A stretch of 64,000 nt of DNA from Oceanimonas pelagia (lineage in GTDB: Bacteria; Pseudomonadota; Gammaproteobacteria; Enterobacterales; Aeromonadaceae), in the NCBI RefSeq assembly GCF_030849025.1, contig NZ_CP118224.1, forward strand, positions 914,001 through 978,000, read 5' to 3'. Below the pieces are notes generated by a model that saw only the letters and a list, made by a program, of their open reading frames with translations, did no database searches and was not told the DNA's origin. Within the stretch, counting starts at the first letter, position 1, and the number at the start of each line of letters is the position of its first letter. This document shows, piece by piece, positions 1-56,108 of the stretch. The position numbers were made by a program, and so were the translations under genes.

Positions 1-54
1 GCCGCCGCTTGCGCTAAACTCGGCAACTGAACTCAAATACTCGGAAACATGAAC

Positions 55-552
55 ATGGTCACACTGCATACTACCTACGGCGACATTACCCTTAACCTGT
101 TTGCCGACAAGGCCCCGGAAACCGTTGCCAACTTTCTGCAATACTGCCGCGACGGTCACTACGACAACACCCTGTTCCACCGGGTGATTGACGGTTTCAT
201 GATTCAGGGCGGCGGCTACGGCCCCGGTTTTGAAGAAAAGGAAACCCGTGCCGCCATCAAGAACGAAGCCGACAATGGCCTGAGCAACAAGGTGGGCACC
301 ATTGCCATGGCCCGCACCATGGAGCCTCACTCCGCCACCGCCCAGTTCTTTATCAACGTCAACGATAACGACTTTCTGAACTTCAAGTCTGCCACCACTC
401 AGGGCTACGGCTACTGCGTGTTTGGCGAAGTGAGCGAAGGCATGGACGTGGTCAACAAGATCAAGGGCGTGGCCACCGGCACCCGCGGCTACATGCATCA
501 GGATGTACCGGTCGACGACGTGCTGATCACCGGCGTGACCGTCAGCGAATAA
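55..552 (+). CDS. ppiB: Peptidyl-prolyl cis-trans isomerase B (cyclophilin)
   Basis: This is a cytoplasmic cyclophilin-type prolyl isomerase that speeds cis-trans isomerisation of Xaa-Pro bonds during folding. The 165-residue protein begins [10 protein letters not shown] and carries the cyclophilin core [14 protein letters not shown] and the [10 protein letters not shown] segment, both typical of bacterial PpiB. Length and start match the E. coli family pattern. An ATG two codons earlier (position 49) is possible, but GGAAA at 41-45 is better spaced from position 55. A GC-rich hairpin follows, and lpxH lies next, an order common in gammaproteobacteria. No signal peptide is present, so this is the cytoplasmic form rather than PpiA. 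Confidence 0.96.
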
Positions 553-574
553 GGCGTTCCCGTTATTGCCTTGC

Positions 575-600
575 AATGCCCGCCCCGGCGGGCATTGTTG
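575..600 (+). terminator. Hairpin after ppiB
   Basis: Ten-base-pair inverted repeat AATGCCCGCC (575-584) and GGCGGGCATT (587-596), followed by GTTGTG. The T-run is weak, so termination may be partial. Confidence 0.6.
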
Positions 601-639
601 TGTTTGGAAGCGGACGGTGTGATACCGGATAGTTGATTA

Positions 640-1380
640 ATGCCCCATACCCTGTTTATTGCCGATTTGCACCTGAGTGCCGGCCGGCCCGATATTACCG
701 CTGCCTTTCTGCACTTTATGGAGCACGAAGCCCCCGAGGCCGATGCCCTGTATGTGCTGGGGGATCTGTTTGAATTCTGGATTGGCGACGACGAGCCGAG
801 CACACTGAACCGGCAGGTGGCGGCAGCGTTCCGGATCTGCCGCGAAGGTGGCACGCCGGTGTATTACATTCACGGCAACCGGGATTTCATGCTCGGCCGG
901 CGTTTTGCCGCCGAGGCGGGCATGACGCTGCTGCCTGAACACAAGGTCATTGACCTGTATGGCGAGCCGGCCCTCATCATGCACGGCGACACCCTGTGCA
1001 CCGATGACGCCGGCTATCAGCGTTTCCGGCGCATCACCCGGCTTGGCTGGCTGCAATGGCTGTTTCTGCGCCTGCCGCTGCAAAAGCGGCTGAAAATCGC
1101 CGACGGCATTCGCGGCAGAAGCGCCCGGTCCAAACAGGAAAAGAGCGTCACCATCATGGACGTAAACCAGGCCGAGGTGGAACGGCAAATGCGCCGGGCC
1201 GGGGTACGGCGGCTGATCCACGGCCATACCCACAGGCCCGCCGTTCATGACTTTGAGCTGGACGGCCGGCCGGTGCAGCGGCTGGTGCTGGGCGACTGGT
1301 ACACCCAGGGCAGCGTGCTGCGCATTGGCCCTGATAATACCGAGCTGCAACGCCGTGAACTGAACAAGGACATGCCATGA
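640..1380 (+). CDS. lpxH: UDP-2,3-diacylglucosamine diphosphatase
   Basis: LpxH hydrolyses UDP-2,3-diacylglucosamine to lipid X in lipid A synthesis at the inner face of the membrane. The 246-residue protein has calcineurin-like metallophosphatase motifs in order: FIADLHLS (D8, H10), LGDLFEFWIGDD, HGNRDFMLG, and the C-terminal HGHTHRP. These are the usual dimetal ligands. The start ATG at 640 gives MPHTLFIADLHLS, which aligns with the family N-terminus, although no strong ribosome-binding site precedes it. The 3' end overlaps dgkA by 4 bases, so the two envelope-lipid genes are probably translated from one message. Confidence 0.96.
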   Translation: MPHTLFIADLHLSAGRPDITAAFLHFMEHEAPEADALYVLGDLFEFWIGDDEPSTLNRQVAAAFRICREGGTPVYYIHGNRDFMLGRRFAAEAGMTLLPEHKVIDLYGEPALIMHGDTLCTDDAGYQRFRRITRLGWLQWLFLRLPLQKRLKIADGIRGRSARSKQEKSVTIMDVNQAEVERQMRRAGVRRLIHGHTHRPAVHDFELDGRPVQRLVLGDWYTQGSVLRIGPDNTELQRRELNKDMP

Positions 1381-1751
1381 AACCGGGCAAAACCGGACTG
1401 AAACGAGTGATTGCGGCCCTGGGTTATTCCCGCCAGGGGCTGGCGAGCGCCTGGCGCTTTGAGGCGGCCTTTCGTCAGGAATGCATGCTGGCGCTGGTGC
1501 TGGTGCCGGTTGCCCTCTGGCTGGAGCTGGGCCTGAGCGAAACCCTGTGGCTGGTGGTAAGCCTGATGCTGGTGCTGGTGGTGGAGCTGCTCAATTCCGC
1601 TATCGAGGCGGTGGTGGACCGCATTGGGCCCGAGCATCATGAGCTGGCGGGGCGGGCCAAGGACACCGCCTCGGCGGCGGTGCTGCTGACCCTGTTGCTG
1701 GCGGTGTTTGTCTGGGCCATGGTGCTGGGCAGGCATTTTCTGGCGGGCTGA
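1377..1751 (+). CDS. dgkA: Diacylglycerol kinase
   Basis: This small integral-membrane kinase recycles diacylglycerol to phosphatidate. The 124-residue protein has three hydrophobic helices and the family signature VVELLNSAIEAVVDRIG, which carries the catalytic glutamates and the metal-binding ELLNSAIE motif, followed by ELAGRAKDTASAAV. Length is near that of the E. coli enzyme (122 residues). It starts within the lpxH stop region (ATGA overlap), which indicates translational coupling. The pairing of lpxH and dgkA is functionally sensible because both act on envelope lipid turnover. Confidence 0.95.
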   Translation: MKPGKTGLKRVIAALGYSRQGLASAWRFEAAFRQECMLALVLVPVALWLELGLSETLWLVVSLMLVLVVELLNSAIEAVVDRIGPEHHELAGRAKDTASAAVLLTLLLAVFVWAMVLGRHFLAG

Positions 1752-2003
1752 AGCCGCGGCAGGCGGAGCCACACGGAAAGGAGCTTTCGCCAAACGGTAT
1801 TCATGAATGGTCACAAAGCGGTCCGAAGGGTAAAAATTTTGTGATCATTCTCGCTTTTTGAGCACCTTGCACTGGCGCCCTGGCCATGGAGAGTAACAAG
1901 GCATTAACAAGCTTAATGCGCCGATTTAAAGTATTCATTTCTGTTATGGGCGGCCAGCCTCTAGCATCAGGGACATGCGCTAATCAGCCATTCATGGGGC
2001 GCA

Positions 2004-2021
2004 GTTAACAACCCTGTTACC
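2004..2021. promoter_or_regulatory. Candidate operator upstream of creatinase copy 1
   Basis: Imperfect inverted repeat GTTAACA-ACCC-TGTTACC (6 of 7 positions pair) about 25 bases before the creatinase start. It is kept in copy 2 (9430-9447) although the flanking bases between it and the ribosome-binding site have diverged. A regulator is not identified. Confidence 0.4.
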
Positions 2022-2045
2022 AAGCTAGAAGGAAGGAGCCTTACC

Positions 2046-3257
2046 ATGCAGATGCCCAGCACCCTGACCATTCCCAACGGTGAAAAAGTTCGCGGCATGT
2101 TTTCCGAGGCGGAAATGCGGTCGCGCCAGCAGAAACTGCGCCAGTATATGGCCGCCAGCGATGTGGACGCCGTGCTGTTCACCTCCTACCACAACATCAA
2201 CTACTTCAGCGATTTTGTGTATTGCCGTTTCGGCCGGGATTATGGTCTGGCGGTGACCCAGGACATTCACACCACCATTACCGCCAACATCGACGGCGGC
2301 CAGCCCTACCGCCGCAACGCCCTGGGCGACAACCTGGTGTATACCGACTGGCAGAAAGACAACTTCTTCCGCGCCGTGCAGCAGCTGATTGGCGGCGCCA
2401 AGCGGGTAGGTGTGGAATTTGACCACCTGAGCCTGCAGAACCTGGACAAGCTCAAGGCGGCGCTGCCGGAAGCCGAGTTCGTGGACATCGGCGTGCCCAC
2501 CATGAAGATGCGCATGATCAAGTCGGCGGAAGAAATTGCCCTGATCAAGCAGGGTGCCCGGGTGGCCGATGTGGGCGGTGCCGCCATTCGCGACGCCATT
2601 GCCGTGGGCGTGCCCGAGTACGAAGTGGCGCTGGCCGGTACTCAGGCCATGGTGCGCGAAATTGCCCGCACTTTCCCCCATGCCGAGCTGATGGACACCT
2701 GGGTGTGGTTCCAGTCCGGCATCAACACCGACGGCGCCCACAACCCGGTGACCAGCCGCAAGATTGAAGCCGGCGACATTCTCAGCCTGAACACCTTCCC
2801 GATGATCGGCGGTTACTACACCGCGCTGGAGCGGACCCTGTTCAGCGAATACGCCTCCGACCGCCACCTGGAGCTGTGGGAAATCAACTGCAAGGTGCAC
2901 CGTCGTGGCCTGGAGCTGATCAAGGCCGGCAACCGCTGCTGCGACATTGCCGCCGAGCTGAATGAAATCTTCGCCGAGCACGACGTGCTGCAGTATCGCA
3001 CCTTTGGTTATGGCCACTCCTTCGGCACCCTGAGCCACTACTACGGCCGTGAAGCGGGCCTGGAGCTGCGGGAAGACATTGAAACCGTGCTGGAGCCGGG
3101 CATGGTGGTGTCGATGGAGCCGATGATCATGCTGCCGGAAGGCCTGCCGGGTGCCGGCGGTTACCGCGAGCACGACATTCTGGTGATCAGCGACAGCGGC
3201 GTGGAAAACATCACCCGCTTCCCCTTCGGCCCCGAGCACAACATCATCAAGGGCTGA
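2046..3257 (+). CDS. Creatinase (creatine amidinohydrolase), copy 1
   Basis: Creatinase hydrolyses creatine to sarcosine and urea in the cytoplasm. The 403-residue protein has the pita-bread peptidase M24-like fold, with an N-terminal domain to about residue 160 and a C-terminal catalytic domain. A histidine occurs at residue 232 within INTDGAHNPVT, the number of the catalytic base in Pseudomonas creatinase, and the protein length is also that of the Pseudomonas enzyme. The true aminopeptidase metal ligands are not conserved, as expected. GGAG seven bases before the ATG fixes the start. The gene is followed by a strong terminator and then the BCCT-creatininase pair. A second gene for the same protein lies at 9470. 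Confidence 0.95.
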   Translation: MQMPSTLTIPNGEKVRGMFSEAEMRSRQQKLRQYMAASDVDAVLFTSYHNINYFSDFVYCRFGRDYGLAVTQDIHTTITANIDGGQPYRRNALGDNLVYTDWQKDNFFRAVQQLIGGAKRVGVEFDHLSLQNLDKLKAALPEAEFVDIGVPTMKMRMIKSAEEIALIKQGARVADVGGAAIRDAIAVGVPEYEVALAGTQAMVREIARTFPHAELMDTWVWFQSGINTDGAHNPVTSRKIEAGDILSLNTFPMIGGYYTALERTLFSEYASDRHLELWEINCKVHRRGLELIKAGNRCCDIAAELNEIFAEHDVLQYRTFGYGHSFGTLSHYYGREAGLELREDIETVLEPGMVVSMEPMIMLPEGLPGAGGYREHDILVISDSGVENITRFPFGPEHNIIKG

Positions 3258-3267
3258 TAACAGACAG

Positions 3268-3293
3268 GCCTGCCCGCAAGGGCAGGCTTTTTT
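3268..3293 (+). terminator. Terminator after creatinase copy 1
   Basis: Stem GCCTGCCC (3268-3275), loop GCAA, GGGCAGGC (3280-3287), then six T. A textbook intrinsic terminator. Confidence 0.9.
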
Positions 3294-3429
3294 GGTTTTG
3301 ATGAATACCCGCGATGCAAGGAGAGTCTCGCGGTCTTGGCAACGAGATGTGTCTGCGGCGAATCATCGCCCGGGCATGTTGAAGTTAATGAGAACAGCTG
3401 TATTGAGCAGTTCTAAGGAGTTGGACGTT

Positions 3430-5031
3430 ATGGTTCTCAATAGTGGCCCATTGAAGGGCATTAATCCGCACATCATGTTTATTTCCCTGCTGATCACGGT
3501 AGGGTTGGTAGGGTTTGCACTGCTGTATCCCGGCCAGTCGGCCTTCCTGGTCGATGCTGTCAGAACGGTGATCACAGTGTCAGCAAACGCCTGGTATGTC
3601 ATATTGGCAGGCCTGTTCCTGATCTTTTGCGTCGGCATCGCCTTCAGCAAATATGGCAACATCAAGCTGGGTGACGACCATGAAAAGCCGGAATTCGGCT
3701 ACTTTGCCTGGTTCGCCATGGTGTATGCGGCCGGTCAGGGCATAGGCATTATCTTCTGGTCCATCGCTGAACCCATGTTCCATTTTTCCGGTGGGTCTCC
3801 CTTTTCTGCTGCCGTCGGCAACCAGGAAGCGGCCGAATCTGCCATGGCCATCGCCTTCTTTCACTGGGGCTTGAATGCCTGGGCCATCTACTGCGTGGTG
3901 GGGCTGTCACTGGCATTTATCTGTTATCGCCTGAAAAAACCGCTGAGTATTCGCTATACCCTTTATCCGCTGTTCGGTGACAAGGTGACCGGTCGCTGGG
4001 GCATACTGATCGATGTGATTGCGGTCTTTGCCACCCTGTTTGGTATCGCCACCTCCCTGGGGATGGGCGCGCAGCAAATCAACGCCGGCCTGGCGGAGAT
4101 TTGGGGCATACCGCAAAGCGAGAATGTTCAGCTGGTGCTGATCTCCGTGATTACCGTCTGTGCGCTGATTTCGGTGCTGACCGGTCTGAAACGCGGAGTG
4201 AAATACCTGTCGATTGGCAACATGTGGCTGACGGTGCTGCTGCTGGTGTTCTTTTTTGCCTTCGGTCCCACACTTTATATTCTGAAGACCCTGTTCGGTG
4301 TAACCTTTGATTATGTTGCGCAACTGGTCAGCTTCAACATCTACATTGAACCGGCACCAACCGATGCCGATGCCAGCTGGAAGAGCATGTGGCAAGGCTG
4401 GTGGACCGTGTTCTACTGGGGCTGGTGGATGTCCTGGGCTCCGTTTGTGGGCGTGTTTGTCGCTCGGGTATCCCGTGGTCGCACAATTCGGGAATTCGTG
4501 CTGGGCGTGGTCGGGGTCTCCTCTCTGCTGTCCTTCGTCTGGCTGGCAGCTTACGGCGGCACTGCACTCTACCAGGACCTGTTCAACAACGCCGGTATTG
4601 CGGCCGTGGTGAGCAATGATGTGGCCAAGGCATTGTATGCCACCTTCCAGAGCATGGATCTGGGCTATCTGTCTACCCTGGCGATGATCGTCGGCACCAT
4701 ACTGGTGGCCACCTATTTCATCACCTCATCCGACTCCGGCACCTTGGTGCTGACCACCATCATGAGTGAGGGTAATGAACATCCCTTGAACCGTCACCGG
4801 GTGGTCTGGGGAATTATGCAGGGCGTGGTGGCCGCCGTGCTGCTGGTGGTGGGAGGCGATGCGGCGCTGAGTTCGCTGCAAACCGCCTCCATTGCCGCCG
4901 CCCTGCCGTTCTCCCTGATCATGCTGCTGATGTGTTGTTCCCTGTATATGGGTGTTAAAAGCGAATACAGAAGAATGATCGAGAACAAGGCATATAACAC
5001 CGTTATTGTTGATTCCAAAGAGGTAAATTAA
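3430..5031 (+). CDS. BCCT-family transporter (candidate creatine/creatinine uptake)
   Basis: This is a betaine/carnitine/choline-type secondary transporter with about 12 membrane helices and 533 residues. The family core is clear: AAGQGIGIIFWSIAEP, then FHWGLNAWAIY, then the tryptophan-rich segment GWWTVFYWGWWMSWAPFVG followed by FVARVSRGRTIREF. The start is taken at 3430 because AAGGAG (3415-3420) precedes it. An in-frame extension to 3292 would begin on the preceding terminator. The gene abuts creatininase with no gap (stop ends 5031, ATG 5032). That tight pairing suggests it brings in creatinine or creatine, which is an inference since known BCCT substrates are quaternary amines and related osmolytes. 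Confidence 0.9.
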   Translation: MVLNSGPLKGINPHIMFISLLITVGLVGFALLYPGQSAFLVDAVRTVITVSANAWYVILAGLFLIFCVGIAFSKYGNIKLGDDHEKPEFGYFAWFAMVYAAGQGIGIIFWSIAEPMFHFSGGSPFSAAVGNQEAAESAMAIAFFHWGLNAWAIYCVVGLSLAFICYRLKKPLSIRYTLYPLFGDKVTGRWGILIDVIAVFATLFGIATSLGMGAQQINAGLAEIWGIPQSENVQLVLISVITVCALISVLTGLKRGVKYLSIGNMWLTVLLLVFFFAFGPTLYILKTLFGVTFDYVAQLVSFNIYIEPAPTDADASWKSMWQGWWTVFYWGWWMSWAPFVGVFVARVSRGRTIREFVLGVVGVSSLLSFVWLAAYGGTALYQDLFNNAGIAAVVSNDVAKALYATFQSMDLGYLSTLAMIVGTILVATYFITSSDSGTLVLTTIMSEGNEHPLNRHRVVWGIMQGVVAAVLLVVGGDAALSSLQTASIAAALPFSLIMLLMCCSLYMGVKSEYRRMIENKAYNTVIVDSKEVN

Positions 5032-5796
5032 ATGGTTAACCTGGAACTGATGGACTGGCAAAGTTACGCCGCCAAGGTCAAGGATGGTAATAGCGTTATC
5101 ATGCTGCCGATTGGCGCCATTGAGCAACACGGTCCTCATATGTCGATGAATCCGGATGTGCTGATCCCCAAGGCCATTTCCGAAGGAGTGGCGAAAAAGT
5201 CGGACTCCATCCTGGTGGCGCCCCCCATCTCCTACGGCTACAAGTCGCAGGTGAAGTCCGGTGGCGGCAACTTCTTCCCGGGTACCACCTGCATCAACGG
5301 CAAGACACTGATCGACGTGGTCAGGGACGTGCTGGTGGCCTATGCCCGCCACGGCAACAGAAAGTTTGTGCTGGTGAACGGCCACTTTGAAAACTCCATG
5401 TTTTTGGTGGAAGGCATTGATCTGGCCCTGGAGCACTTGCGCCATGAGGGCATTCAGGCCCAGGTGATGCTGCTGTCCTATTGGGACTATGTGACCAAGG
5501 AAACCATTGCAACCGTCTTCCCCGATGGCTTTACCGGCTGGGACGTGGAGCACGGCGGCGTGCTGGAAACATCGCTGATGCTTCATCTTCACCCGGATTG
5601 TGTCGACATGGATAAGGTGGTGCATCACCATCCGGCGACCTTTCCGCCTTACGATATCTTCCCGTCAGAGCCCAGTTGGGTGCCATCCTCGGGAACATTG
5701 TCATCGGCCAAGAATGCCAGTGAGGAATACGGGAAGTTACTCTTCGATGTGTGTGTCGATGGGATATACGGCTCGGTGTCAGAACGATTTATCTAG
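5032..5796 (+). CDS. Creatininase (creatinine amidohydrolase)
   Basis: This enzyme interconverts creatinine and creatine, feeding the adjacent creatinases. The 254-residue protein belongs to the creatininase/MftE family. The metal-binding set is visible: E31 and H33 in GAIEQHGPHMS, D42 in MNPDVL, H118 and E120 in VNGHFENSMF, and the WDVEHGG segment that supplies a further glutamate. The numbering lies 2-3 residues short of the Pseudomonas enzyme (E34, H36, D45, H120, E122). It begins directly after the BCCT stop codon, so the two genes form a transcriptional unit closed by the terminator at 5825-5851. Confidence 0.93.
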   Translation: MVNLELMDWQSYAAKVKDGNSVIMLPIGAIEQHGPHMSMNPDVLIPKAISEGVAKKSDSILVAPPISYGYKSQVKSGGGNFFPGTTCINGKTLIDVVRDVLVAYARHGNRKFVLVNGHFENSMFLVEGIDLALEHLRHEGIQAQVMLLSYWDYVTKETIATVFPDGFTGWDVEHGGVLETSLMLHLHPDCVDMDKVVHHHPATFPPYDIFPSEPSWVPSSGTLSSAKNASEEYGKLLFDVCVDGIYGSVSERFI

Positions 5797-5824
5797 ATAG
5801 GGTTTTCTTTTCTGTAAATACCAA

Positions 5825-5851
5825 CAAGCCACCCAGGGTGGCTTGTTTTTT
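5825..5851 (+). terminator. Terminator after creatininase
   Basis: Stem CAAGCCACC (5825-5833), loop CAG, GGTGGCTTG (5837-5845), then a T-run to 5851. It lies between creatininase and the asnS-like start at 5870, so transcription of the latter needs readthrough or an internal promoter. Confidence 0.9.
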
Positions 5852-5869
5852 AATGATGACGGTCAAGTT

Positions 5870-7267
5870 ATGCATACAGCCATTAAGGAAATTAAAAGCC
5901 ATCGCTACGGTGACGGTGATGCCATTGTGGTAAAGGGGTGGGTCAGAACAAGAAGAGACTCCAAATCCGGAGTGTCATTTATCAATGTTTATGATGGCTC
6001 CTGCTTTGAGCCCCTTCAGGTGGTCGCACCCGACAGCCTGAACAACTATGGTACAGAAGTATTGAAACTGACCACGGGATGCTCGTTGATTGTCTCGGGC
6101 AGGCTGGTTGAGTCTCATGGTAAACAGCAGGCGCTGGAACTGCGTGCCGAGCAGATCACTGTGGTGGGCTGGGTCGAGGATCCCGAGAGTTACCCGATGT
6201 CGCCCAAGCGACACAGCATCGAATACCTGCGTGAACATGCGCACCTGCGGCCAAGAACCAATGTTATTGGCAGCGTGGCCAGGATCAGAAACGCCATTTC
6301 CCAGGCGATTCATCGGTTTTTTAGCGAGCAGGGCTTTTTATGGGTGGCCTCACCCATTATCACCGCCTCCGATTGTGAAGGAGCGGGGGAAATGTTCCGG
6401 GTCTCTACCCTTGACCTGCAGCAGTTGCCACTGGATGAAAAGGGCGAGGTGGATTTCGACCAGGATTTTTTTGGCAAGGAGGCATTCCTGACCGTATCAG
6501 GTCAGCTCAATGCCGAGGCATATGCCTGTGCCCTGAGCAAGGTGTATACCTTTGGGCCGACCTTCAGAGCCGAAAACTCCAATACCAGCCGGCATCTTGC
6601 GGAGTTCTGGATGGTCGAGCCGGAAGTGGCTTTTTCGGATTTGGATGAAAGTGCTGCACTTGCCGAGTCCTTGCTGAAGGCGATCTGCCAGGCTGTGCTG
6701 AGCGAGCGCCGGGACGATCTGCAATTTCTGTCCGGCTTTGTGGATGCAGATCTGATTGGCAGGCTCGAGACGCTGGTGGGCTCAGACTTTATTCACATCA
6801 ACTATTCCGATGCTGTGGCCATTCTTGAACAGTCCGGGCGCGAGTTCGAATTTCCCGTGTTTTGGGGGGCGGATCTGTCCTCCGAGCATGAGCGTTATTT
6901 AACCGAGCAACACTTCAAAGCCCCCGTGGTGGTAAAGAATTATCCCAAGGACATCAAGTCTTTCTATATGAAGCTGAATGATGATGGCAAAACCGTGGCG
7001 GCCATGGATGTGCTGGCGCCGGGCATTGGTGAGATCATCGGCGGTTCCCAGCGAGAACACCGCCTGGATATTCTGGATGCGAGAATCCAAGAGCTTGGCA
7101 TGAAGCTCGAAGATTATGACTGGTACCGGCAACTCAGGCGCTACGGTACCGTACCACATGCGGGTTTCGGCCTGGGTCTGGAAAGAATGGTGGCTTATGT
7201 TACGGGGTTGGGTAATGTCAGAGATACCATTCCTTTTCCACGTACACCGCGTAACGCTAGTTTTTAA
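5870..7267 (+). CDS. asnS: Asparaginyl-tRNA synthetase, probably a second copy
   Basis: This is a full-length class IIb aminoacyl-tRNA synthetase of 465 residues that charges tRNA-Asn. It has the N-terminal OB-fold anticodon-binding domain ([16 protein letters not shown], to about residue 110). The catalytic core follows, with [18 protein letters not shown] (motif 2 region) and [14 protein letters not shown] (motif 3), ending [11 protein letters not shown] as in E. coli AsnRS. No catalytic truncation is seen. Its first ATG is only about 20 bases after a terminator and has no good Shine-Dalgarno sequence. Position inside a catabolic island and codon use with more A/T than the flanking genes suggest a laterally acquired paralogue, although a second asnS cannot be shown from this window. 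TrpRS- or AspRS-like identity is excluded by the ENSNTSRH motif. Confidence 0.93.
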
Positions 7268-7306
7268 TCATTGGTGTAAGAAGTTAAAGTATTGAGGCAT
7301 CGACCC

Positions 7307-7322
7307 TGGCGGAAATGTTGCT
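7307..7322 (+). promoter_or_regulatory. Candidate sigma54 promoter before second BCCT gene
   Basis: TGGCGGA-AATG-TTGCT has the invariant GG (7308-7309) and GC (7320-7321) exactly ten bases apart and a perfect TTGCT -12 half. The -24 half is weaker (TGGCGGA versus TGGCACG). It lies about 85 bases before the gene start at 7408. Confidence 0.4.
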
Positions 7323-7407
7323 TTAAAGCTCTGGGTGGAGTGTTTTTTAAAATGAATAGGCTAAATGGAATGTGGCAATGAATGACAGTAACAAGGAGGA
7401 GTACGGA

Positions 7408-9129
7408 ATGGTAAGTCATAATTCGGCGAACAATCATGCAGGTGCTTGTCAGCATGCCAGTAAGGAGTTGGCTATTCCGCGGGTAATGGGGTCTGACTTG
7501 TCAGTGATTAGCAGGTTAATTATTCAAGTGACTCCCCCTGTCGTTATTGTTGCCTTGATTGCCATGGTGTTAAAGAATCCCGAGGGCGTTGCAGATGTTA
7601 TTTTTGACTTGCGTACCTATGTGACCGGAGGGTTTACCTGGCTATTTATTTTATATTCCGTTTTTGCCGTGGCGGTATGCGGCTGGCTGGTTTTTAGCAA
7701 AGTAGGCAAACAGGTGCGATTGGGCGGGCCCGCCGCCAAACCTGAGTACAGTAATTTTGCCTGGTACTCGATGTTATTTGCCTGTGGGCAGGGGGTTGGC
7801 TTGATATTCTGGTCAGTCGCCGAGCCGATTATGTTGCGTGATGACAGTCCTGTCGTGCAGGCGGTGGAAGGTGACGTCGCTGCAGGAGGAATTGTATGGA
7901 CCTATTTCCACTGGGGATTCACTGCCTGGGCCATGTATTGTGTTGTTGCGGTATGTCTGGCTTACTCTCATCATAACCTGGGTAAAACCCTGACATTTCG
8001 TGAAGCCACAGTGGATATGTTGCCACCATGGGCTCAAGGGCCGGTTGGCGTGGGGGTTGAACTGTTGGCGATTATGGCAACCGTATTTGGGCTGTCAACG
8101 TCTTTTGCTTTTGCTGCCATGCAGTTTACTTCTGGTCTGGGCTCATTTACCTCCATTGATGGTGGTGCCAGCATCTGGTTTTTAGTGATACTTGCTTTGG
8201 GGCTTGCGGCTGCCATATCCGCTTTTTTTGGCATTAGTAAAGGCATGAAGCTGATTAGTGAAGCTAACTCGATTTTGAGTATTTTGCTTGTTGTTGCGGC
8301 CTTTGTATTTGGCCCAACTCTGTTTATCCTGTCCAATATAACCCAGACTTTCGGCTCATATTTTGACCATTTTATTTCAATGAGCTTCTGGACAGATGCC
8401 CCCAGCAGTGCGGAGCCACTGAGTTCCTGGCAGCAGAGCTGGAATGGCTGGTGGACTGTATTTATCTGGTGCTGGGTAATTGCTTTCTCACCTTTTGTTG
8501 CCGGGTTTATTGCCCGAATCTCACGCGGTCGTACTCTGCGAGAGTTTGTCGTAGGAGTAACCGTTATACCGTCATTGATTGTAATGATCTGGATTGGTGT
8601 GCTGGGTTCTGCCGCTATTTATTATGATGATAAAACCGGTCGTGGAATCTCTGCGGCTATTGGTGAAAATGTGTCCGGCGGACTGTTCGTTATGCTGGAG
8701 TCGATTCCTCTGGTTGGCAGTTTGTTGTTGGTGGTGGCCACGGTGTTGGTGGCAACTTATTATGTCACGTCGTTAGATGCCGGAACATATGCGTTGGCAG
8801 AGTTTGTTTCGGCACCGAAACGCTCAGGTGCCTGGTTTAGAGTGGCACTGGTTTTAAGTATTGGTGCTGTCGCCACAGTATTGCTGACCATTGGAGGGAG
8901 TGATGTAGTGGATACAGTACAGACAGGAACCATTATTGGTGCCTTTCCCTTTTCTATAGTTATCTTGATCATGATTGCCAACATGATAAAGCGGTTACTT
9001 GGCAGGGATAGGTCAGTAAAGGAGCTGGAGAAAGTAGTTAATAACCCAGATCCTAAGGTTGCGCTGGAAACTGACAGTAACGGTGATCTTCGAGCCGTTA
9101 CCAGTGCGGAGCCGGTGACAAACGCTTAG
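7408..9129 (+). CDS. BCCT-family transporter, A/T-rich paralogue
   Basis: A second betaine/carnitine/choline-type transporter of 573 residues with about 12 membrane helices. Family landmarks are CGQGVGLIFWSVAEP, FHWGFTAWAMY, the tryptophan-rich SWNGWWTVFIWCWVIAFSPFV and FIARISRGRTLREF. The start at 7408 is chosen because AAGGAGGA (7393-7400) precedes it at good spacing. A GTG/ATG pair upstream (7372, 7378) is in frame but poorly served. Codon use is clearly more A/T-rich than the neighbouring creatinase genes, pointing to separate ancestry. It has no adjacent enzyme of its own except creatinase copy 2, so a creatine-related substrate is only an inference. A long-armed hairpin (ACCCTGCC at 9146, GGCAGGGT at 9177) follows without a T-run. 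Confidence 0.88.
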   Translation: MVSHNSANNHAGACQHASKELAIPRVMGSDLSVISRLIIQVTPPVVIVALIAMVLKNPEGVADVIFDLRTYVTGGFTWLFILYSVFAVAVCGWLVFSKVGKQVRLGGPAAKPEYSNFAWYSMLFACGQGVGLIFWSVAEPIMLRDDSPVVQAVEGDVAAGGIVWTYFHWGFTAWAMYCVVAVCLAYSHHNLGKTLTFREATVDMLPPWAQGPVGVGVELLAIMATVFGLSTSFAFAAMQFTSGLGSFTSIDGGASIWFLVILALGLAAAISAFFGISKGMKLISEANSILSILLVVAAFVFGPTLFILSNITQTFGSYFDHFISMSFWTDAPSSAEPLSSWQQSWNGWWTVFIWCWVIAFSPFVAGFIARISRGRTLREFVVGVTVIPSLIVMIWIGVLGSAAIYYDDKTGRGISAAIGENVSGGLFVMLESIPLVGSLLLVVATVLVATYYVTSLDAGTYALAEFVSAPKRSGAWFRVALVLSIGAVATVLLTIGGSDVVDTVQTGTIIGAFPFSIVILIMIANMIKRLLGRDRSVKELEKVVNNPDPKVALETDSNGDLRAVTSAEPVTNA

Positions 9130-9469
9130 AAGAGCTAAATAAATCACCCTGCCGGGGAGCACATCAGTTGTAACCAGGCAGGGTAATTGTTATTGCGAAG
9201 AATTAAATTGGTGATGGCACAATGATATTAACAAGCTTGAGCTTTGTGGTTTATTGATCCTTTCGGTGACAGGCAGGCCCTATTTTAGGGCCAGTCAGAT
9301 GGCAATTGCATTATTGTGGTTACATCTCATTAACAATATAAATGTCATAATTTAAAGTATTCATTTCTGTTATGGTCGGCCAGGCTCTAGCATCAGGGAC
9401 ATGCGCTAATCAGCCATTTATGGAGCGCAGTTAACAACCCTGTTACCGATATAAGGAAGGAGCCTTACC
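9130..9469. other. Gene-free stretch between BCCT gene and creatinase copy 2
   Basis: No gene is seen in these 340 bases. The left part is A/T-rich and unique, with the hairpin arms at 9146-9153 and 9177-9184. From 9350 the sequence is the duplicated creatinase promoter region, including the operator-like inverted repeat at 9430-9447. Confidence 0.7.
9430..9447. promoter_or_regulatory. Candidate operator upstream of creatinase copy 2
   Basis: GTTAACA-ACCC-TGTTACC, identical to 2004-2021, just before the ribosome-binding site of the second creatinase gene. Confidence 0.4.
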
Positions 9470-10681
9470 ATGCAGATGCCCAGCACCCTGACCATTCCCA
9501 ACGGTGAAAAAGTTCGCGGCATGTTTTCCGAAGCGGAAATGCGTTCCCGCCAGCAGAAACTGCGCCAGTATATGGCCGCCAGCGATGTGGACGCCGTGCT
9601 GTTCACCTCCTACCACAACATCAACTACTTCAGCGATTTTGTGTATTGCCGTTTCGGCCGGGATTATGGTCTGGCGGTGACCCAGGACATTCACACCACC
9701 ATTACCGCCAACATCGACGGCGGCCAGCCCTACCGCCGCAACGCCCTGGGCGACAACCTGGTGTATACCGACTGGCAGAAAGACAACTTCTTCCGCGCCG
9801 TGCAGCAGCTGATTGGCGGCGCCAAGCGGGTAGGTGTGGAATTTGACCACCTGAGCCTGCAGAACCTCGACAAGCTCAAGGCGGCGCTGCCGGAAGCCGA
9901 GTTCGTGGACATCGGCGTGCCCACCATGAAGATGCGCATGATCAAGTCGGCGGAAGAAATAGCCCTGATCAAGCAGGGTGCCCGGGTGGCCGATGTGGGC
10001 GGTGCCGCCATTCGCGACGCCATTGCCGTGGGCGTGCCCGAGTACGAAGTGGCGCTGGCCGGTACTCAGGCCATGGTGCGCGAAATTGCCCGCACTTTCC
10101 CCCATGCCGAGCTGATGGACACCTGGGTGTGGTTCCAGTCCGGCATCAACACCGACGGCGCCCACAACCCGGTGACCAGCCGCAAGATTGAAGCCGGCGA
10201 CATTCTCAGCCTGAACACCTTCCCGATGATCGGCGGTTACTACACCGCGCTGGAGCGGACCCTGTTCAGCGAATACGCCTCCGACCGCCACCTGGAGCTG
10301 TGGGAAATCAACTGCAAGGTGCACCGCCGTGGCCTGGAGCTGATCAAGGCCGGCAACCGCTGCTGCGACATTGCCGCCGAGCTGAATGAAATCTTCGCCG
10401 AGCACGACGTGCTGCAGTACCGCACCTTTGGTTATGGCCACTCCTTCGGCACCCTGAGCCACTACTACGGCCGTGAAGCGGGCCTGGAGCTGCGGGAAGA
10501 CATTGAAACCGTGCTGGAGCCGGGCATGGTGGTGTCGATGGAGCCGATGATCATGCTGCCGGAAGGCCTGCCGGGTGCCGGCGGTTACCGCGAGCACGAC
10601 ATTCTGGTGATCAGCGACAGCGGTGTGGAAAACATCACCCGCTTCCCCTTCGGCCCCGAGCACAACATCATCAAGGGCTGA
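9470..10681 (+). CDS. Creatinase (creatine amidinohydrolase), copy 2
   Basis: The 403-residue product is identical, residue by residue as far as I can compare, to that of the gene at 2046, including histidine 232. Nucleotide differences are few and silent (for example GAGGCG to GAAGCG and CGTCGT to CGCCGT), so the pair is either recent or kept alike by gene conversion. It has its own promoter-proximal repeat, ribosome-binding site and terminator, so it should be expressed independently. It lies upstream of the tiny membrane protein and SSS symporter, which may share its regulation. Gene dosage, or use in two conditions, are possible reasons for keeping both. Confidence 0.95.
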   Translation: MQMPSTLTIPNGEKVRGMFSEAEMRSRQQKLRQYMAASDVDAVLFTSYHNINYFSDFVYCRFGRDYGLAVTQDIHTTITANIDGGQPYRRNALGDNLVYTDWQKDNFFRAVQQLIGGAKRVGVEFDHLSLQNLDKLKAALPEAEFVDIGVPTMKMRMIKSAEEIALIKQGARVADVGGAAIRDAIAVGVPEYEVALAGTQAMVREIARTFPHAELMDTWVWFQSGINTDGAHNPVTSRKIEAGDILSLNTFPMIGGYYTALERTLFSEYASDRHLELWEINCKVHRRGLELIKAGNRCCDIAAELNEIFAEHDVLQYRTFGYGHSFGTLSHYYGREAGLELREDIETVLEPGMVVSMEPMIMLPEGLPGAGGYREHDILVISDSGVENITRFPFGPEHNIIKG

Positions 10682-10687
10682 TAAACG

Positions 10688-10721
10688 CAGGCTCGCCCGC
10701 AGGGGCGAGCCTGATTTTTTT
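10688..10721 (+). terminator. Terminator after creatinase copy 2
   Basis: Eleven-pair stem CAGGCTCGCCC (10688-10698), loop GCAG, GGGCGAGCCTG (10703-10713), then ATTTTTTT. Confidence 0.9.
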
Positions 10722-10835
10722 AACGGCAATGAAGGGAATATTGTTGCCGTCCTACTTCTGGTGAGGCCGGCACGCCCGGTGGAATCAGGGACATCAAACC
10801 CGCTTCGCAAGAAGCCGCTCAATGAGGTAGAAGTC

Positions 10836-10949
10836 ATGCTAAATGAATCCTGGACCATGGAATGGTTCGTCTATCTGAACGCCATCATTCTTGCCTGGGC
10901 CGCCCTGGCCTATGTCTACCGGCAATACGTTCGTAAATCCGGCCATTGA
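10836..10949 (+). CDS. Tiny single-span membrane protein paired with SSS symporter
   Basis: A 37-residue protein beginning MLNESWTMEWFVYLNAI. It has one hydrophobic span (roughly residues 10-27) and a basic tail ending YVRKSGH, which predicts the C-terminus inside. It sits 36 bases before a sodium:solute symporter. A second, unrelated-looking tiny protein (33 residues, 15706-15807) accompanies the other SSS gene in this window. Small proteins beside symporters are known as symporter accessory proteins, and that is the likely class here, inferred from size, topology and position. The start has only a weak GAGG ribosome-binding site. An in-frame extension upstream runs back into the creatinase gene and is not credible. 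Confidence 0.7.
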   Translation: MLNESWTMEWFVYLNAIILAWAALAYVYRQYVRKSGH

Positions 10950-10985
10950 TGAACGACACGACCAAACGACCAAAGGGAATTTGTG

Positions 10986-12449
10986 ATGGAAAACTATTCA
11001 TTTCTGAACTGGGCCCTGCTGCTGGGCTCCTTCGGTGTGCTGATCTTTATCGGCTATCTGTCCAGCCGGGTGGTAAAAGACAGCGATGAAACCGGCTTTC
11101 TGGTGGCCGGCCGCAGCCTGGGCCCGTTCGTGGGCGCCGGCACCATAGTGGCCACCGGCTTCAGCGGCTGGGGTTTTATGGGCTCCCCCGGTGTGGCCTA
11201 TGAGTTCGGCTCGGTGGAAGTGCTGGGCAACTTCTTCTTTGCCCCGGCCATGGTGATTGCGGTGCTGTACTTTGCCCACTTTTTGCGCCGGCGTGCCGAG
11301 GAGCTGGGCAGCTGTACCATCCCTGAGTATGTGTCTCAGGTGCACGGCGGCGGCCAGCTGCTGGAGCGTTGGGTCAAGGGCGTGGCAGCCACCATTACCA
11401 TAGTGCTGCTGCTGGTGTTCCTCACCAGCCAGATCAAGGCGGTGGGTCTGCTGGGGGCGTCCTGGCTGGGGATTGAACTCACCGAAAGCGCCCTGCTGAT
11501 GATCTCGGTGATCATTCTCTACACCATGCTGGGCGGGCTGGCCGCGGTGGCCTGGACCGACACCCTGATGGTGGCGGGCATGGGCATTGGTGCCCTGGTG
11601 ATGATGGTGCAAATCTTCACCGACGTGAGCCTGACCGAGATGAGCGAGCGGCTGAACGCCATCGATCCCGAACTGCTTAACCCGAGCACCTCGGCCCCTT
11701 ACGGTGAGAGCAAGGGCTCGGTATTCCTGGTGCTGCCCTATGCCTTTTTGTTTACCGCCGTGCTGCCCTACATGGCGGTGCGTTTTCTGGCCTTTAAACC
11801 GACCGTGAAAATGCACCAGGTGGCCATTTGGGTAGCGCCCATGGGATGCCTGCTGAGTCTGGTACCCATTGTGGGCATGTATGTGCGCATCGCTCACCCC
11901 GAGCTGGCGGAAGCGGATCAGGCCATGCCGGTGTATCTGGCGACCTTCCTGCATCCGGCACTGGCGGGGGTGATCACCCTGTTTATTCTGTTCGCCATGA
12001 AATCCACCGCCAACTCGCTGCTGCACACGGTGTCGAGCGCCGCGTCCCACGATCTGCGTACCGCGCTGTTTCCCCACAGCAAGGCGTCGGGCGCCCGCAT
12101 TCTGTGGGTGAACCGCATCTGGGTGGCCATTCTCGGCTTTGTGGGTTTTCTGATGATGCTGTACGCGCCGCCCTTCATGCTGTCGTGGCTGGGCATTCTC
12201 GGCTCCGGCACCCTGCTGGCGGTGATGATAGGACCGGTGTTCATCTCCTCCTTCTGGCAGGGCAACGGTTATGGCGCCCTGGCATCCATGCTCACCGGCC
12301 TGGTCACCAGCGGCAGCTTCCTGCTGTTTACCGATGTGGGCTGGGTGGAAGGCCCGCTGTATGGCTGTCTGGCGTCTTCTCTTGTCTATGTGACCGTGAG
12401 CAGGCTGACACAGGGCGCCCCTGCCGGTGCCGTGGCGCGCAGCTGCTGA
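10986..12449 (+). CDS. Sodium:solute symporter (SSS family)
   Basis: A 487-residue polytopic transporter with about 13 membrane helices. Features of the SSS family include FLVAGRSLGPFVGAGTIVATGFSG near the N-terminus (helix 1 sodium-binding region), GFMGSPGVAYEFG, CTIPEYV, and KSTANSLLHTVSSAASHD in the helix 8 region. The start is placed at ATG 10986, with AAGGGA upstream. A GTG one codon earlier is possible. It follows a tiny membrane protein and a creatinase gene, so a substrate in creatine, creatinine or sarcosine metabolism is plausible but unproven. The more usual SSS substrates (proline, pantothenate, acetate, choline) cannot be excluded. A strong terminator follows. Confidence 0.88.
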   Translation: MENYSFLNWALLLGSFGVLIFIGYLSSRVVKDSDETGFLVAGRSLGPFVGAGTIVATGFSGWGFMGSPGVAYEFGSVEVLGNFFFAPAMVIAVLYFAHFLRRRAEELGSCTIPEYVSQVHGGGQLLERWVKGVAATITIVLLLVFLTSQIKAVGLLGASWLGIELTESALLMISVIILYTMLGGLAAVAWTDTLMVAGMGIGALVMMVQIFTDVSLTEMSERLNAIDPELLNPSTSAPYGESKGSVFLVLPYAFLFTAVLPYMAVRFLAFKPTVKMHQVAIWVAPMGCLLSLVPIVGMYVRIAHPELAEADQAMPVYLATFLHPALAGVITLFILFAMKSTANSLLHTVSSAASHDLRTALFPHSKASGARILWVNRIWVAILGFVGFLMMLYAPPFMLSWLGILGSGTLLAVMIGPVFISSFWQGNGYGALASMLTGLVTSGSFLLFTDVGWVEGPLYGCLASSLVYVTVSRLTQGAPAGAVARSC

Positions 12450-12472
12450 GCCCTTGCTGACCTGATGGATCA

Positions 12473-12497
12473 AAGCCCGGCTTGCCGGGCTTTTTTG
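12473..12497 (+). terminator. Terminator after SSS symporter
   Basis: AAAGCCCGGC-TT-GCCGGGCTTTTTT, a compact stem with a T-run, 25 bases after the stop. Confidence 0.9.
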
Positions 12498-12684
12498 CGT
12501 GGCCGCGGACGGCTCAGAGAGTTTCGTATGAGTATATTTGTGGGTGTTCCGGATCACATTTTTGTCATCTGCACATGGATAATAACCATTTTTATAATAA
12601 GGATATCTGTCTGCCGGCGGCATGCTCACGGGGAATAACGACATCGCCGGCGCCTCATGGACGAGACGACCGGAGATTCATGGA

Positions 12685-14265
12685 ATGCGCAATAATCAGC
12701 CCGTTACCGGGCGCAATGTGGAGTTGCCGGACGGCATCAACATTCTGTCCACCACCAGCCCGGACAGCCGGATCACCTATGTGAACCGGGCCTTTACCGA
12801 GGTATGCGGCTTTCAGCCCGAGGAGCTGATCGGCCAGCCGCACAACATGATCCGCCACCCGGACATGCCGCCTCAGGCGTTTGCCCATATGTGGCAGACC
12901 CTCAAGGCCGGCCGCTCCTGGATGGGGCTGGTCAAGAACCGGTGCAAGAACGGTGATCACTACTGGGTCAGCGCCTATGTTTCTCCCATCGTGCACAACG
13001 GTGAGGTGGTGGAATACCAGTCGGTGCGCACCAAGCCGGAGCCCGCCCGGGTCGCGGCGGCGGAGCGGCTTTACGCCCGGTTGCGGGCGGGCAGGCGTCT
13101 GGGCTCCCGCTGGGGGCGGCTGGGCCTGACGTTGCGCATGGCGCTGCTGATGCTGCCGCTCACCCTGCTGGCCGGGCTGGGGACGGCGGCGCTGTTTTCC
13201 GCCGCCTGGTTGCCGGTGCTGCTGGCAGCGGGGCTGACCGGGGGGCTGTGCATGCTGACTGCGGCGGTGATGCTCTCGCCCCTGCGCCGGCTGGCGGTCC
13301 GGGCGCGAAAGCAGGCCGACAACCCCCTCAGCCGGTTGGTTTATACCGGCCGGGAAGACGAGCTGGGGCAGATTGATTTTGCCCTGGCCATGGCACAGGC
13401 CGAGTCGGTTGCCCTGCTCGGACGCTTGTCTGACTCGGCTCAGCGCCTGGGCGGTCACAGCGCCGACTTGTTGCAGGAAATGGCCACCGGTCAGCAACTG
13501 ACCATGCGCCAGCAGGCCGAAACCGAGCAGGTGGCCACCGCCATCAACCAGATGGCCGCCAGCATTCAGCAGGTGGCGTCAAGCGCCCAGCAGGCTGCCA
13601 CCGCTGCCGAGCAGGCAAGGCAGGACAGCCGCGCCGGCCAGCGTCTGGTGGCCGGCACCAGCGAGTCCATTCACGCGCTGGATGACGAAATCCGGGAAGC
13701 GAGCCGCGTGATTCGAGAGCTGGAAAGCCATGGCCAGAGTATTTCCACCATTCTGGAAGTGATTCGGGGCATTGCCGAGCAGACCAACCTGCTGGCGCTC
13801 AATGCCGCCATTGAGGCGGCCCGGGCCGGTGAGCAGGGCCGGGGCTTTGCGGTGGTGGCCGACGAGGTGCGCAGCCTGGCGGGCCGCACCAGCGAGTCGA
13901 CCACGGACATTCAGAACATGATAAGCCAGCTGCAGCAGGGCACCCGCCTGGCGGTGTCGGTGATGGAGCGCAGCCGGGAGCAGGCCCGGCACTGCGTGGA
14001 TCATGCCCGGCAGGCGGCGGGCGCGCTGGATGGCATCGATCAGCGGGTGCAGGAAATTTCCGAAATGAACATGTGCATCGCCACCGCGGTGGAGCAGCAA
14101 AGCGCGGTCAGCGAGGATATCAACCGGGGCGTTGACACCATACGCGACGCCGCCGAGCACCAGGTGGCCACCGGCCGGCACAACCGTCAGCGCTGCGACC
14201 GGGTGGCGGAACTGGCCGAGGGGCTGAACGAGCTGTCACGCCAGCTCTGGCTGCGGCGGACCTGA
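12685..14265 (+). CDS. PAS-domain methyl-accepting chemotaxis protein (Aer-like)
   Basis: A 526-residue chemoreceptor. Residues from about 15 to 120 form a PAS domain ([31 protein letters not shown]), as in the energy-taxis receptor Aer. Two hydrophobic helices follow at about 150-200, then a HAMP-like region. The C-terminal half is a cytoplasmic signalling domain with the conserved tip [20 protein letters not shown] and [12 protein letters not shown]. No periplasmic sensing domain is present, so the signal is probably internal (FAD redox or metabolite). The start at 12685 has GGAG nine bases upstream. It lies between transport islands, and a role in taxis towards catabolised amines is conceivable only. 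Confidence 0.9.
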
Positions 14266-17318: not shown

Positions 17319-17377
17319 GAATGTATAAATGAAATTTGTACCCAGCTGGCATGAACAAGGACGCGGAGAAAGTTGCC

Positions 17378-18319
17378 ATGAACCCCAAGGTCAATGCGAA
17401 ACAACTGCACATTTTTCAGGAGGTGATCCGCAGTGGCAGCATCAGCAAGGCGGCACGCCGGCTGGGGCTGACACAGCCGGCCGTGAGCACCGCCATAGCC
17501 AACCTCGAAAGTGACATGGGGTTTATGCTGTTCCGGCGTAATCACTACGGCACCGAGATGACCGCAGAAGCCAAATCCTTTTCCGAGGGAGTGGAGCGTG
17601 CGCTCAAGGCCCTGAACAACCTGGAAGAGCTGGCATCAGATCTGAAGCACGGCCGCACCGGCAAGCTGCAGATTGGCTGCATGCCGGGCATGGCCACCCT
17701 GGCGCCCGCCATGGTGGCGGCCTTTATGGGCCATAACCCCGGGGTCAAGCTGTCGCTGCAGACCTTTCCGTCGGGCAAGGTGGAGGAGTGGGTGGCCGGG
17801 GGGCACTTTGATCTGGGGATAGTGGAAAAACCCCAGGCCAAAAACGAGCTGGAAATCTGGCCCTACCGTTTTCGCATGTTGTGCGCGCTGCCGGCGGGCT
17901 CACCCCTGGCGGAGCGGCGGGAAATCACCATTGACGATCTGGAAGGGCGGCCCCTGATCACCCTGGGGGACGGCCATCAGAGCACCATGCAGCTGCGCAG
18001 CCTGGCCCACCGGCACAACCTGGCCCTCAACGTGGTGGCCGAAACCCAGCTGTTTCCGTCGGCCATGGGCCTGGTCGACGCCGGCGTCGGTTATACCCTG
18101 ATCGACCCCATTACCGCCATGGAATACGGCAAGCGCCATGACTGCTCCGTGGTGCTGCGGCCGTTTGCGCCTCGGGTGGAGTTTGAAGTGGCCATTATTC
18201 TGCCGCGCTTTCACCTGACGTCACGGTTGTGCCAGCGCTTTCATGCCGCATTGAAGGCAGAGTTCGACGCCATGGCGGCGCGCTTTGCCTCGGCCGGGCA
18301 GGAGGCGGAACGGAACTGA
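17378..18319 (+). CDS. LysR-family regulator of the adjacent SSS/dehydrogenase unit
   Basis: A 313-residue LysR-type regulator. The N-terminal winged helix-turn-helix is visible (LHIFQEVIRSGSISKAARRL, then LTQPAVSTAIANLE), followed by a periplasmic-binding-protein-like effector domain. The start at 17378 has GGAG nine bases upstream and places the HTH at the usual distance from the N-terminus. Upstream in-frame ATG (17351) and TTG (17336) codons are alternatives. It is divergent from the SSS operon, the classic arrangement for autoregulation and control of the neighbour. The inducer is unknown. Confidence 0.88.
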   Translation: MNPKVNAKQLHIFQEVIRSGSISKAARRLGLTQPAVSTAIANLESDMGFMLFRRNHYGTEMTAEAKSFSEGVERALKALNNLEELASDLKHGRTGKLQIGCMPGMATLAPAMVAAFMGHNPGVKLSLQTFPSGKVEEWVAGGHFDLGIVEKPQAKNELEIWPYRFRMLCALPAGSPLAERREITIDDLEGRPLITLGDGHQSTMQLRSLAHRHNLALNVVAETQLFPSAMGLVDAGVGYTLIDPITAMEYGKRHDCSVVLRPFAPRVEFEVAIILPRFHLTSRLCQRFHAALKAEFDAMAARFASAGQEAERN

Positions 18320-18336
18320 AGCGTCCCGCTTCCGGC

Positions 18337-19194
18337 TCAGAGCGCCTTCAGCCCCTGCCGGAGGTAGTCGAGCAGCATATGGCCGGCGGAGGTGAGTTCG
18401 TTGGCGTCGTAACAAAAGCCGATGGATACGCTGCCCAGATCCGGGCAGTGGGCAAAGCTGGACGAGGCTTCCAGCCCCTCGGGCACGGTGCTCTTGGACA
18501 GCACGCTGATGCCGAGACCCGCCTTGATGGCGGAGTGAATGCCCAGCAGGCTGGAGGTGCTGTATACCACGCGCCAGGGCAGGTTGGCACGGGTGAGGGC
18601 ATTGATAATGGATTTGCGGTACAGACAACCCTTGGGATAGAGAATGAGCGGCAGGGGCGCATCCGGCGACAGCATGATGTTGCTGTTGCGCACCCACACC
18701 AGGGGCTCGGTAATGTAGTCGGTCAGTTGCGGGTGCTGCGGCCGGCTTTCTTCAATGGCCATCACCAGATCGTAGGCGCCTTTCTTGTAGTCACTGAGCA
18801 GGTTGGCACTGATGTCGCTGCTTACATCCAGGGTGACGCCCGGATAGGCCTGGGAGAAACGCCCCAGGGTGGTGGCCAGAAACGACACCTCAAAGTCGTT
18901 GGGAATGCCCAGGCGCACCGAGCCGCTCACCCTGGGGGTGCCCAGGCGGGAGATCAGGCCGTCGTTGAGCTCTAGCATTTTCTGGGCGCAGCTCAGCAGC
19001 AGCTGGCCTTCTTCGGTTAGCTGCAGGCCCTGGCCCCGGTTGAACAGCTTGACGTCAAGCAGCTCTTCCAGCCGCTTCATCTGCAGGCTTACGGCGGGCT
19101 GGGAGCGGCCGAGCCGCTCGCCGGCCTGGGTGAAGCCTCCCAGCTGGTTGATGGTGACAAAGGTACGCAGCAAATCCGTGGGCAGGTTCTTCAT
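18337..19194 (-). CDS. LysR-family transcriptional regulator
   Basis: A 285-residue LysR-type regulator with the N-terminal HTH (LLRTFVTINQLGGFTQAGERL, SQPAVSLQMKRLEELLDVKLF) and an effector-binding domain. The start at 19194 gives MKNLPTDLLRTF, the normal family spacing. The 25 upstream in-frame residues are A/T-rich and overlap the likely promoter. The HTH resembles the LrhA/PecT subgroup. It is convergent with the preceding LysR gene (17 bases apart) and no divergent target gene is present, since a helicase on the same strand lies upstream. Its regulon is unknown. Confidence 0.85.
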   Translation of the reverse strand: MKNLPTDLLRTFVTINQLGGFTQAGERLGRSQPAVSLQMKRLEELLDVKLFNRGQGLQLTEEGQLLLSCAQKMLELNDGLISRLGTPRVSGSVRLGIPNDFEVSFLATTLGRFSQAYPGVTLDVSSDISANLLSDYKKGAYDLVMAIEESRPQHPQLTDYITEPLVWVRNSNIMLSPDAPLPLILYPKGCLYRKSIINALTRANLPWRVVYSTSSLLGIHSAIKAGLGISVLSKSTVPEGLEASSSFAHCPDLGSVSIGFCYDANELTSAGHMLLDYLRQGLKAL

Positions 19195-19205
19195 GCTGGA
19201 AAATT

Positions 19206-19256: not shown

Positions 19257-19263
19257 AAAATGA

Positions 19264-53332: not shown

Positions 53333-53353
53333 GCCCGAGTCCGTTGTGAACGC

Positions 53354-56092: not shown

Positions 56093-56108
56093 GCCGGCGG
56101 TTTTGCCG

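Follow-up and report, generated by a model that had tools for sequence, protein, structure and literature searches.

Paired creatinase genes around a creatinine-utilisation block in Oceanimonas pelagia: probable sequence exchange between copies and presence or absence of the block among relatives

The 64,000-nt stretch of the Oceanimonas pelagia genome analysed here (the window; G000:C1:914001-978000, G000 being the genome of the window) carries two creatinase genes in direct repeat. Between them lie four genes, for a BCCT transporter, a creatininase, a second asparagine--tRNA ligase (asnS2) and a second BCCT transporter, a gene content that had been predicted from the sequence in advance and with which profile matches agree for all four. 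We consider it likely that two modules stand side by side at this locus, that the creatinase pair is old and its copies have been homogenised, and that the repeats permit loss, exchange and homogenisation of the creatinine module. The structure is real and its parts are ordinary, and known processes (gene conversion, recombination between repeats) suffice to account for it. One genus-level group offers a natural series of states, namely two copies with the block, one copy with the block and a promoter scar, one copy without the block, and none. This series lets one trace how a catabolic module is lost by way of its repeats, exchanged and subject to gene conversion, and could explain varying creatinine use among close species.

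A BLAST comparison of the window with itself gave a single long direct repeat (1924-3283 versus 9350-10706; 98.4% over 1360 aligned positions), and the creatinase starts (2046 and 9470) lie 7,424 bp apart, in agreement with the predicted spacing of about 7.4 kb. The coding sequences (CDSs) differ at 8 of 1209 sites (99.3% identity), all of them silent and none non-silent, and both 403-aa products are identical, just as had been read from the letters alone. The further claim that the promoter is included holds in part: the repeat takes in the leader, but the 122-nt leader is less alike (92%) than the CDS segments (97-100%). Similarity is 40% in the upstream spacer and 67% in the first 45 nt past the stop codon. 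In a whole-genome DNA search with creatinase only these two copies matched at length, besides two further matches of 40-46 bases. An assembly artefact is an unlikely source of the pair, because the genome is one contig of 3,592,406 bases and the relatives G004, G014 and G016 each carry two creatinases on one contig. The full-length match to the solved creatine amidinohydrolase 1chm (E 1.9e-196 over 2-402; best other M24 entry 1.5e-25) points to a creatinase and not to another M24 peptidase; the nearest named matches come from Oceanimonas, Zobellella and Oceanisphaera.

Among 22 further genomes of the same genus (23 with G000), the locus takes several forms. Two full creatinases around the block occur in 4 of the 23 (G000, G004, G014, G016), one full creatinase with the block in another four (G001, G012, G018, G020), a single creatinase and no block in nine (G002, G003, G007, G008, G009, G013, G015, G019, G021), and no creatinase in five (G005, G010, G011, G017, G022). 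G006 has the block, and its contigs break inside creatinase, so that copy number is not countable. A whole-genome search found creatininase in all nine block genomes and in none of the other 14. Gene order in G004 is creatinase (CRE)-BCCT1-creatininase (CRN)-asnS2-BCCT2-CRE-symporter (SSS); G016 shares it without an intact asnS2, and G014 has CRE-BCCT2-CRN-CRE-SSS. In all nine block-less relatives the symporter follows creatinase.

The single-creatinase state without the block, which the original prediction expected in related genomes, therefore exists in 9 of the 22 relatives. We aligned a virtual deletion product with five of these nine, and all five alignments cross the junction, in one piece for G009 (query 1-6841 of 6876, 86.9%) and with breaks elsewhere for G002, G003, G007 and G013. 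The nine block-less genomes hold no short block-gene remnant and no second creatinase promoter in the stretches examined. In five block genomes (G001, G018, G020, G016, G006) an orphan creatinase-type promoter with no creatinase after it precedes the symporter, and a former second creatinase is therefore suggested there; G012 lacks the front part of the symporter as well. Sequence 3' of creatinase 2 in G016 is apparently an asnS2 3' end (blastn 85% over 53 nt to the G018 asnS2 end; no tblastn match). A topology that groups the five block-less members of the G000 clade was rejected (p 3.7e-56, quick tree), and therefore the block must have changed state more than once within this clade. For the species tree, matches with <70% coverage or <60% identity were dropped first, and those with <80% coverage in a later tree; G022 is left out (no rpoB found), one locus was used for the rpoB of G012, which is in two pieces, and G006a was removed before the comparison of 4-fold degenerate sites.

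The flanks bear on the age of the pair. The 110-nt spacers upstream of the repeat agree by position between G000 and G004 (0.69 identical for copy 1, 0.59 for copy 2), compared with 0.37 and 0.41 for the two spacers of one genome and 0.39 and 0.48 for crosswise pairs. Judged by this pattern and by the shared gene order, the double-creatinase arrangement appears older than the split of G000 and G004, and it is probably older than the split from G016 also. Inside the repeat, grouping by position was rejected for copy 1 (p 3.7e-7) and for copy 2 (p 0.001), and in the creatinase tree the two G000 copies are sisters (support 100/98). At 4-fold sites the copies differ at 5/199 in G000 (0.03), 49/198 in G004 (0.25), 27/197 in G016 (0.14) and 35/181 in G014 (0.19), and six pooled housekeeping genes differ between G000 and G004 at 318/1107 (0.29). 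The best explanation for the near-identical G000 copies is that they were recently matched by gene conversion or an equivalent exchange, a process that we infer from comparing sequences. The leader of G000 copy 1 differs from that of G004 copy 2 in 0 of 124 columns and from that of G004 copy 1 in 10; sequence therefore seems to have moved between positions. Such a pattern at leaders and flanks is what conversion, or excision and re-entry, between copies would leave. The G014 copies appear mosaic by a longest-run test (p 0.00135); as a control of mosaic testing, 206 between-genome pairs gave, with a sum-of-squares measure, 14.6% at p<=0.05 and 1.0% at p<=0.002.

Outside the genus we surveyed 73 creatinase loci (matches <50% identity dropped, seven same-genus loci set aside; contig ends cut some loci). 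A BCCT gene lies within 400 bp of creatininase in 22 of the 29 creatininase-bearing loci, and in 9 of the 73 a symporter occurs without creatininase in the stretch examined. Together, this pairing and these symporter loci suggest separate creatinine and creatine modules, with transporter substrates predicted accordingly. The creatinine module would comprise creatinase 1, BCCT, creatininase, asnS2 and BCCT2, and the creatine module creatinase 2, a small open reading frame (ORF) and the sodium symporter, each with its own creatinase under the same promoter type. Imported creatinine would be turned into creatine by the putative creatininase, and creatine into sarcosine and urea by the putative creatinases. 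Conversion, or equivalent recombination, would recently have matched the two G000 copies and thereby kept a near-perfect 1.2-kb homology arm on either side of the block. Recombination between the arms could excise the creatinine module; the product, a single intact creatinase ahead of the symporter, is what the block-less relatives resemble. Deletion between direct repeats by homologous recombination is a general process; the locus shares its geometry, and the expected single-copy product exists in relatives, but what is observed here is states of different species and not a deletion event. The "built-in loss switch" proposed earlier would thus be a consequence of the repeats; no regulated switch was found, and no test was aimed at one.

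Several observations weigh against this reading. The single-copy creatinases show no clean chimera or clear breakpoint, and at the 78 sites that distinguish the G004 copies G003 is copy-1-like in both halves (24/12, 29/8). Over the 50 sites that separate the G016 copies, G003 and G009 are nearer to copy 1 in their 5' halves and nearer to copy 2 in their 3' halves, which decides nothing because G004 copy 1 leans likewise. The swap of leaders is one-sided, the G000 copy-2 leader being equally far from G004 copy 1 and copy 2 (8, 8). The longest-run test gave p 0.48 for G000, 0.056 for G004 and 0.45 for G016; own-genome copies as sisters were not rejected in G004 (p 0.076) or G016 (p 0.175); and the species tree does not pair G000 with G004 (p 0.0495 when held together). 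Between these two genomes, synonymous divergence (dS) of the block genes is 0.90-1.98, compared with 0.33 and 0.65 for two housekeeping genes and 0.42 for the symporter, and the block may therefore have been exchanged between lineages instead of being inherited in place. The DNA tree of asnS2 sets G000 nearer to Zobellella-type genomes than to G004 (96/99), which the protein tree does not. In G018 and G020 the whole locus, from creatinase to symporter (L126, L129), differs by 0.02-0.04 at 4-fold sites versus 0.18 in housekeeping genes; on these values it is a locus exchanged laterally, and recently, between species. By parsimony the presence of the block has to change six times on the tree of 22 genomes, and six times on the creatinase-bearing genomes alone; parsimony cannot separate gain from loss.

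Whether deletions or gains underlie the distribution of the block is thus a direction we infer. If the single creatinase with its symporter were ancestral, incoming DNA carrying creatinase and block could have recombined in and made the direct repeat in one step; the identity of the G000 copies would then call for a donor belonging to this strain or a closely related one. The single-copy junction is equally expected under such a course, which also accommodates the patchy block over the species tree and its low G+C. It remains a strong rival because of the silent divergence of the block, the conflicting asnS2 trees and the recent G018/G020 exchange, and since it differs from repeat-mediated loss in direction only, confidences in the two overlap. 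Against it speak the orphan promoters in five genomes, the match upstream of copy 2 between G000 and G004, and a creatininase tree that broadly follows the species tree, except that G006 and G012 group. On balance we hold gain to be quite possible but not the probable course. A tandem duplication confined to this genome would suit the near-identical CDSs and identical proteins, and a duplication arriving together with the block had been suggested originally. This is not supported: the CRE-block-CRE order recurs in G004 and G016 with diverged copies (78 and 50 nt over the whole CDS), G004 matches around both copies, and a leader and 3' end far more diverged than the CDS are not what one recent event would give, so that a recent duplication is improbable. 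Purifying selection alone without conversion is likewise improbable. The identical proteins and the low ratios of non-synonymous to synonymous divergence (dN/dS) between copies (0.017 in G004 and G016, 0.029 in G014) would fit, but protein-level selection leaves a silent divergence of 0.03 here versus 0.25 in G004 unexplained. We regard as least probable of all a mobile element, transposon-like or integrative, of which the creatinase repeats would merely form the passive ends: block composition and patchy distribution are compatible with one, but the 8 ORFs scanned from 1377 to 14262 include no transposase, integrase or recombinase, and a tRNA scan of the window gave no matches. An Rfam scan of the window (gathering threshold) gave no matches either.

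Returning to old, homogenised copies around a block that can be lost, the nearest parallel is the concerted evolution of tuf-type duplicated genes by gene conversion, as set out in parts of PMC6053082 and PMC5485169. As described there, long-standing duplicates with different neighbours resemble each other within one genome more than they resemble their counterparts in other species, with conversion as the process, and the creatinase pair is like them in this. Unlike tuf-type pairs, the creatinase copies lie close together as direct repeats with a catabolic block between them, and a crossover would therefore also delete the block. For tandem copies, a passage of PMC6053082 names independent tandem duplication as an alternative; its main text nowhere contains "creatin". 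PMC8864220, to judge by its title, concerns the genes by which bacteria use creatine, and how these are regulated, in Corynebacterium glutamicum; compared with the system so named, the Oceanimonas locus has two creatinases, two BCCT transporters and a second asparaginyl-tRNA synthetase (AsnRS). A full-text search of one paper library returned nothing treating creatinase, creatininase and BCCT together, and the titles and abstract beginnings examined contained nothing on this arrangement.

Of the 73 loci outside the genus, that of Marinobacterium profundum (L053) alone has two creatinases. It has the double-creatinase layout of the window (CRE-BCCT1-CRN-CRE-SSS), its copies differing by 54 nt and 4 aa, and a 1381-bp repeat that takes in the leader, but it lies in another genus and has no asnS2 or BCCT2 within the 18.4 kb examined; descent, transfer or convergence could have led to this layout. 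As a speculative extension, to which we attach rather little confidence, paired creatinases might form a self-maintained exchange cassette: conversion would keep the arms matched, so that the creatinine module could be deleted, regained or swapped between species by ordinary homologous recombination at creatinase, and the module would become locked in once creatinase 2 had been lost and its promoter remained as a scar. Marinobacterium would then be a second, independent case, and asnS2 would serve a block-specific function in growth on creatinine.

Features of the creatinase locus in the window, with the basis of each assignment
Feature	Position	Strand	Basis
dgkA (prokaryotic diacylglycerol kinase), left outer flank	1377..1751	+	Pfam PF01219
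Creatinase-1 upstream region: dyad CATTAACAAGCTTAATG (1902-1918), core ATTTAAAGTATTCATTTCTGTTATG (from 1924), leader	1902..2045	+	read from sequence
Creatinase copy 1, 403 aa	2046..3257	+	ORF, copy alignment, 1chm match
Terminator-like hairpin with T run, 3' of creatinase 1	3268..3293	+	read by eye, no tool score
BCCT transporter 1; probable true start ATG 3430 (from upstream AAGGAG and homology onset)	3292..5031	+	PF02028
Creatininase, 254 aa	5032..5796	+	TIGR04448 343.5 bits (cut-off 235); 1j2t E 2.4e-96
asnS2, second asparagine--tRNA ligase; probable true start ATG 5870	5843..7267	+	TIGR00457 650.6 bits
BCCT transporter 2	7372..9129	+	PF02028
Creatinase-2 upstream region: imperfect dyad (9328-9344), core from 9350, leader	9328..9469	+	read from sequence
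Creatinase copy 2, 403 aa, protein identical to copy 1	9470..10681	+	ORF, copy alignment
Terminator-like hairpin with T run, 3' of creatinase 2, unlike hairpin of copy 1	10688..10721	+	read by eye, no tool score
37-aa ORF before symporter; same protein start readable in G013 and G016	10836..10949	+	read from sequence
Sodium:solute symporter (SSS family), candidate creatine importer, right outer flank	10983..12449	+	PF00474

The block had also been called foreign-looking and more A/T-rich than its outside. Its composition bears out the latter, with 51.5% G+C (3284-9349) versus 60-62% in the surroundings; it is the most A/T-rich 6-kb stretch of the window, and the lowest-G+C stretches of 6066 bp (steps of 100) all overlap it. 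Foreignness is only partly supported, since G+C at third codon positions is 0.85-0.88 for BCCT1, creatininase and asnS2 in the G+C-rich relative G018, which is without BCCT2, and creatininase with BCCT is common in creatinase loci of other genera; "foreign-looking" is a compositional statement. We rejected a plasmid origin: creatininase has matches on 388 plasmid records, only 2 of them at 60-80% identity, and asnS2 on 93, of which 17 fall in that range, the others being lower and no near relative appearing for either gene.

The analysis also flags a second AsnRS travelling with creatininase. The asnS2 product scores 674 and 651 bits against NCBIfam models (cut-offs 414 and 342.6) and is 71% identical to the other genome copy (G000:C1:1228024-1229418); since the genome has this other asnS, loss of the block need not be lethal. 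The gene adjoins creatininase in G000, G001, G004 (with one in-frame stop), G012, G018 and G020, and occurs in none of the 73 loci outside the genus. At 173 near-invariant AsnRS columns it deviates in seven, compared with a median of 0 and a largest value of 8 (one row) among 52 housekeeping rows. Positions 144, 406 and 430 set all six asnS2 copies examined apart from 52 other AsnRS. Its dN/dS is 0.085 between G000 and G018 and 0.066 against the stop-bearing G004 copy, and such values are weak evidence for present use because the ratio is low even in the latter comparison. The best identity outside the genus is 70% (369 genomes drawn from the class, 55 with a match at E 1e-100), and in a quick tree asnS2 forms one clade near the genus's own asnS and a genome of the same order.

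Upstream of both creatinases lie a dyad and a 25-nt core (1902-1948 and 9328-9374), and this core precedes all 21 full creatinases examined in the genus, with 4 mismatches before G016 copy 2. A genome search with the final 17 bases of the core gave exact matches only at the two creatinases; allowing <=3 mismatches raised the number to eight, versus three for a backward control. A related element (<=3 mismatches) stands before creatinase in 8 of 40 loci (L046-L085), including Marinobacterium and Amphritea. By position only, two LysR-type genes at 17336-19269 are candidate regulators. The 37-aa ORF, which has no Pfam match, is possibly a small membrane partner of the symporter. On the other side of the locus, dgkA lies upstream of creatinase in 13 of 17 relatives' stretches, the exceptions being G001, G006, G018 and G020; within the stretch examined around creatinase, G001 and G020 have neither lpxH nor dgkA.

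Elsewhere in the window, about 40 kb from the creatinase locus, an apparent glycine-betaine demethylation cluster (53427-59927; ferredoxin-type, Rieske-type, BCCT and AraC-type genes, named by eye from translations) could provide a route that meets creatine breakdown at sarcosine. Short repeats, two direct and one inverted (52807-53335 and 56207-56273), surround an apparent decayed transposase fragment recognised by eye, and resemble a REP/RAYT element.

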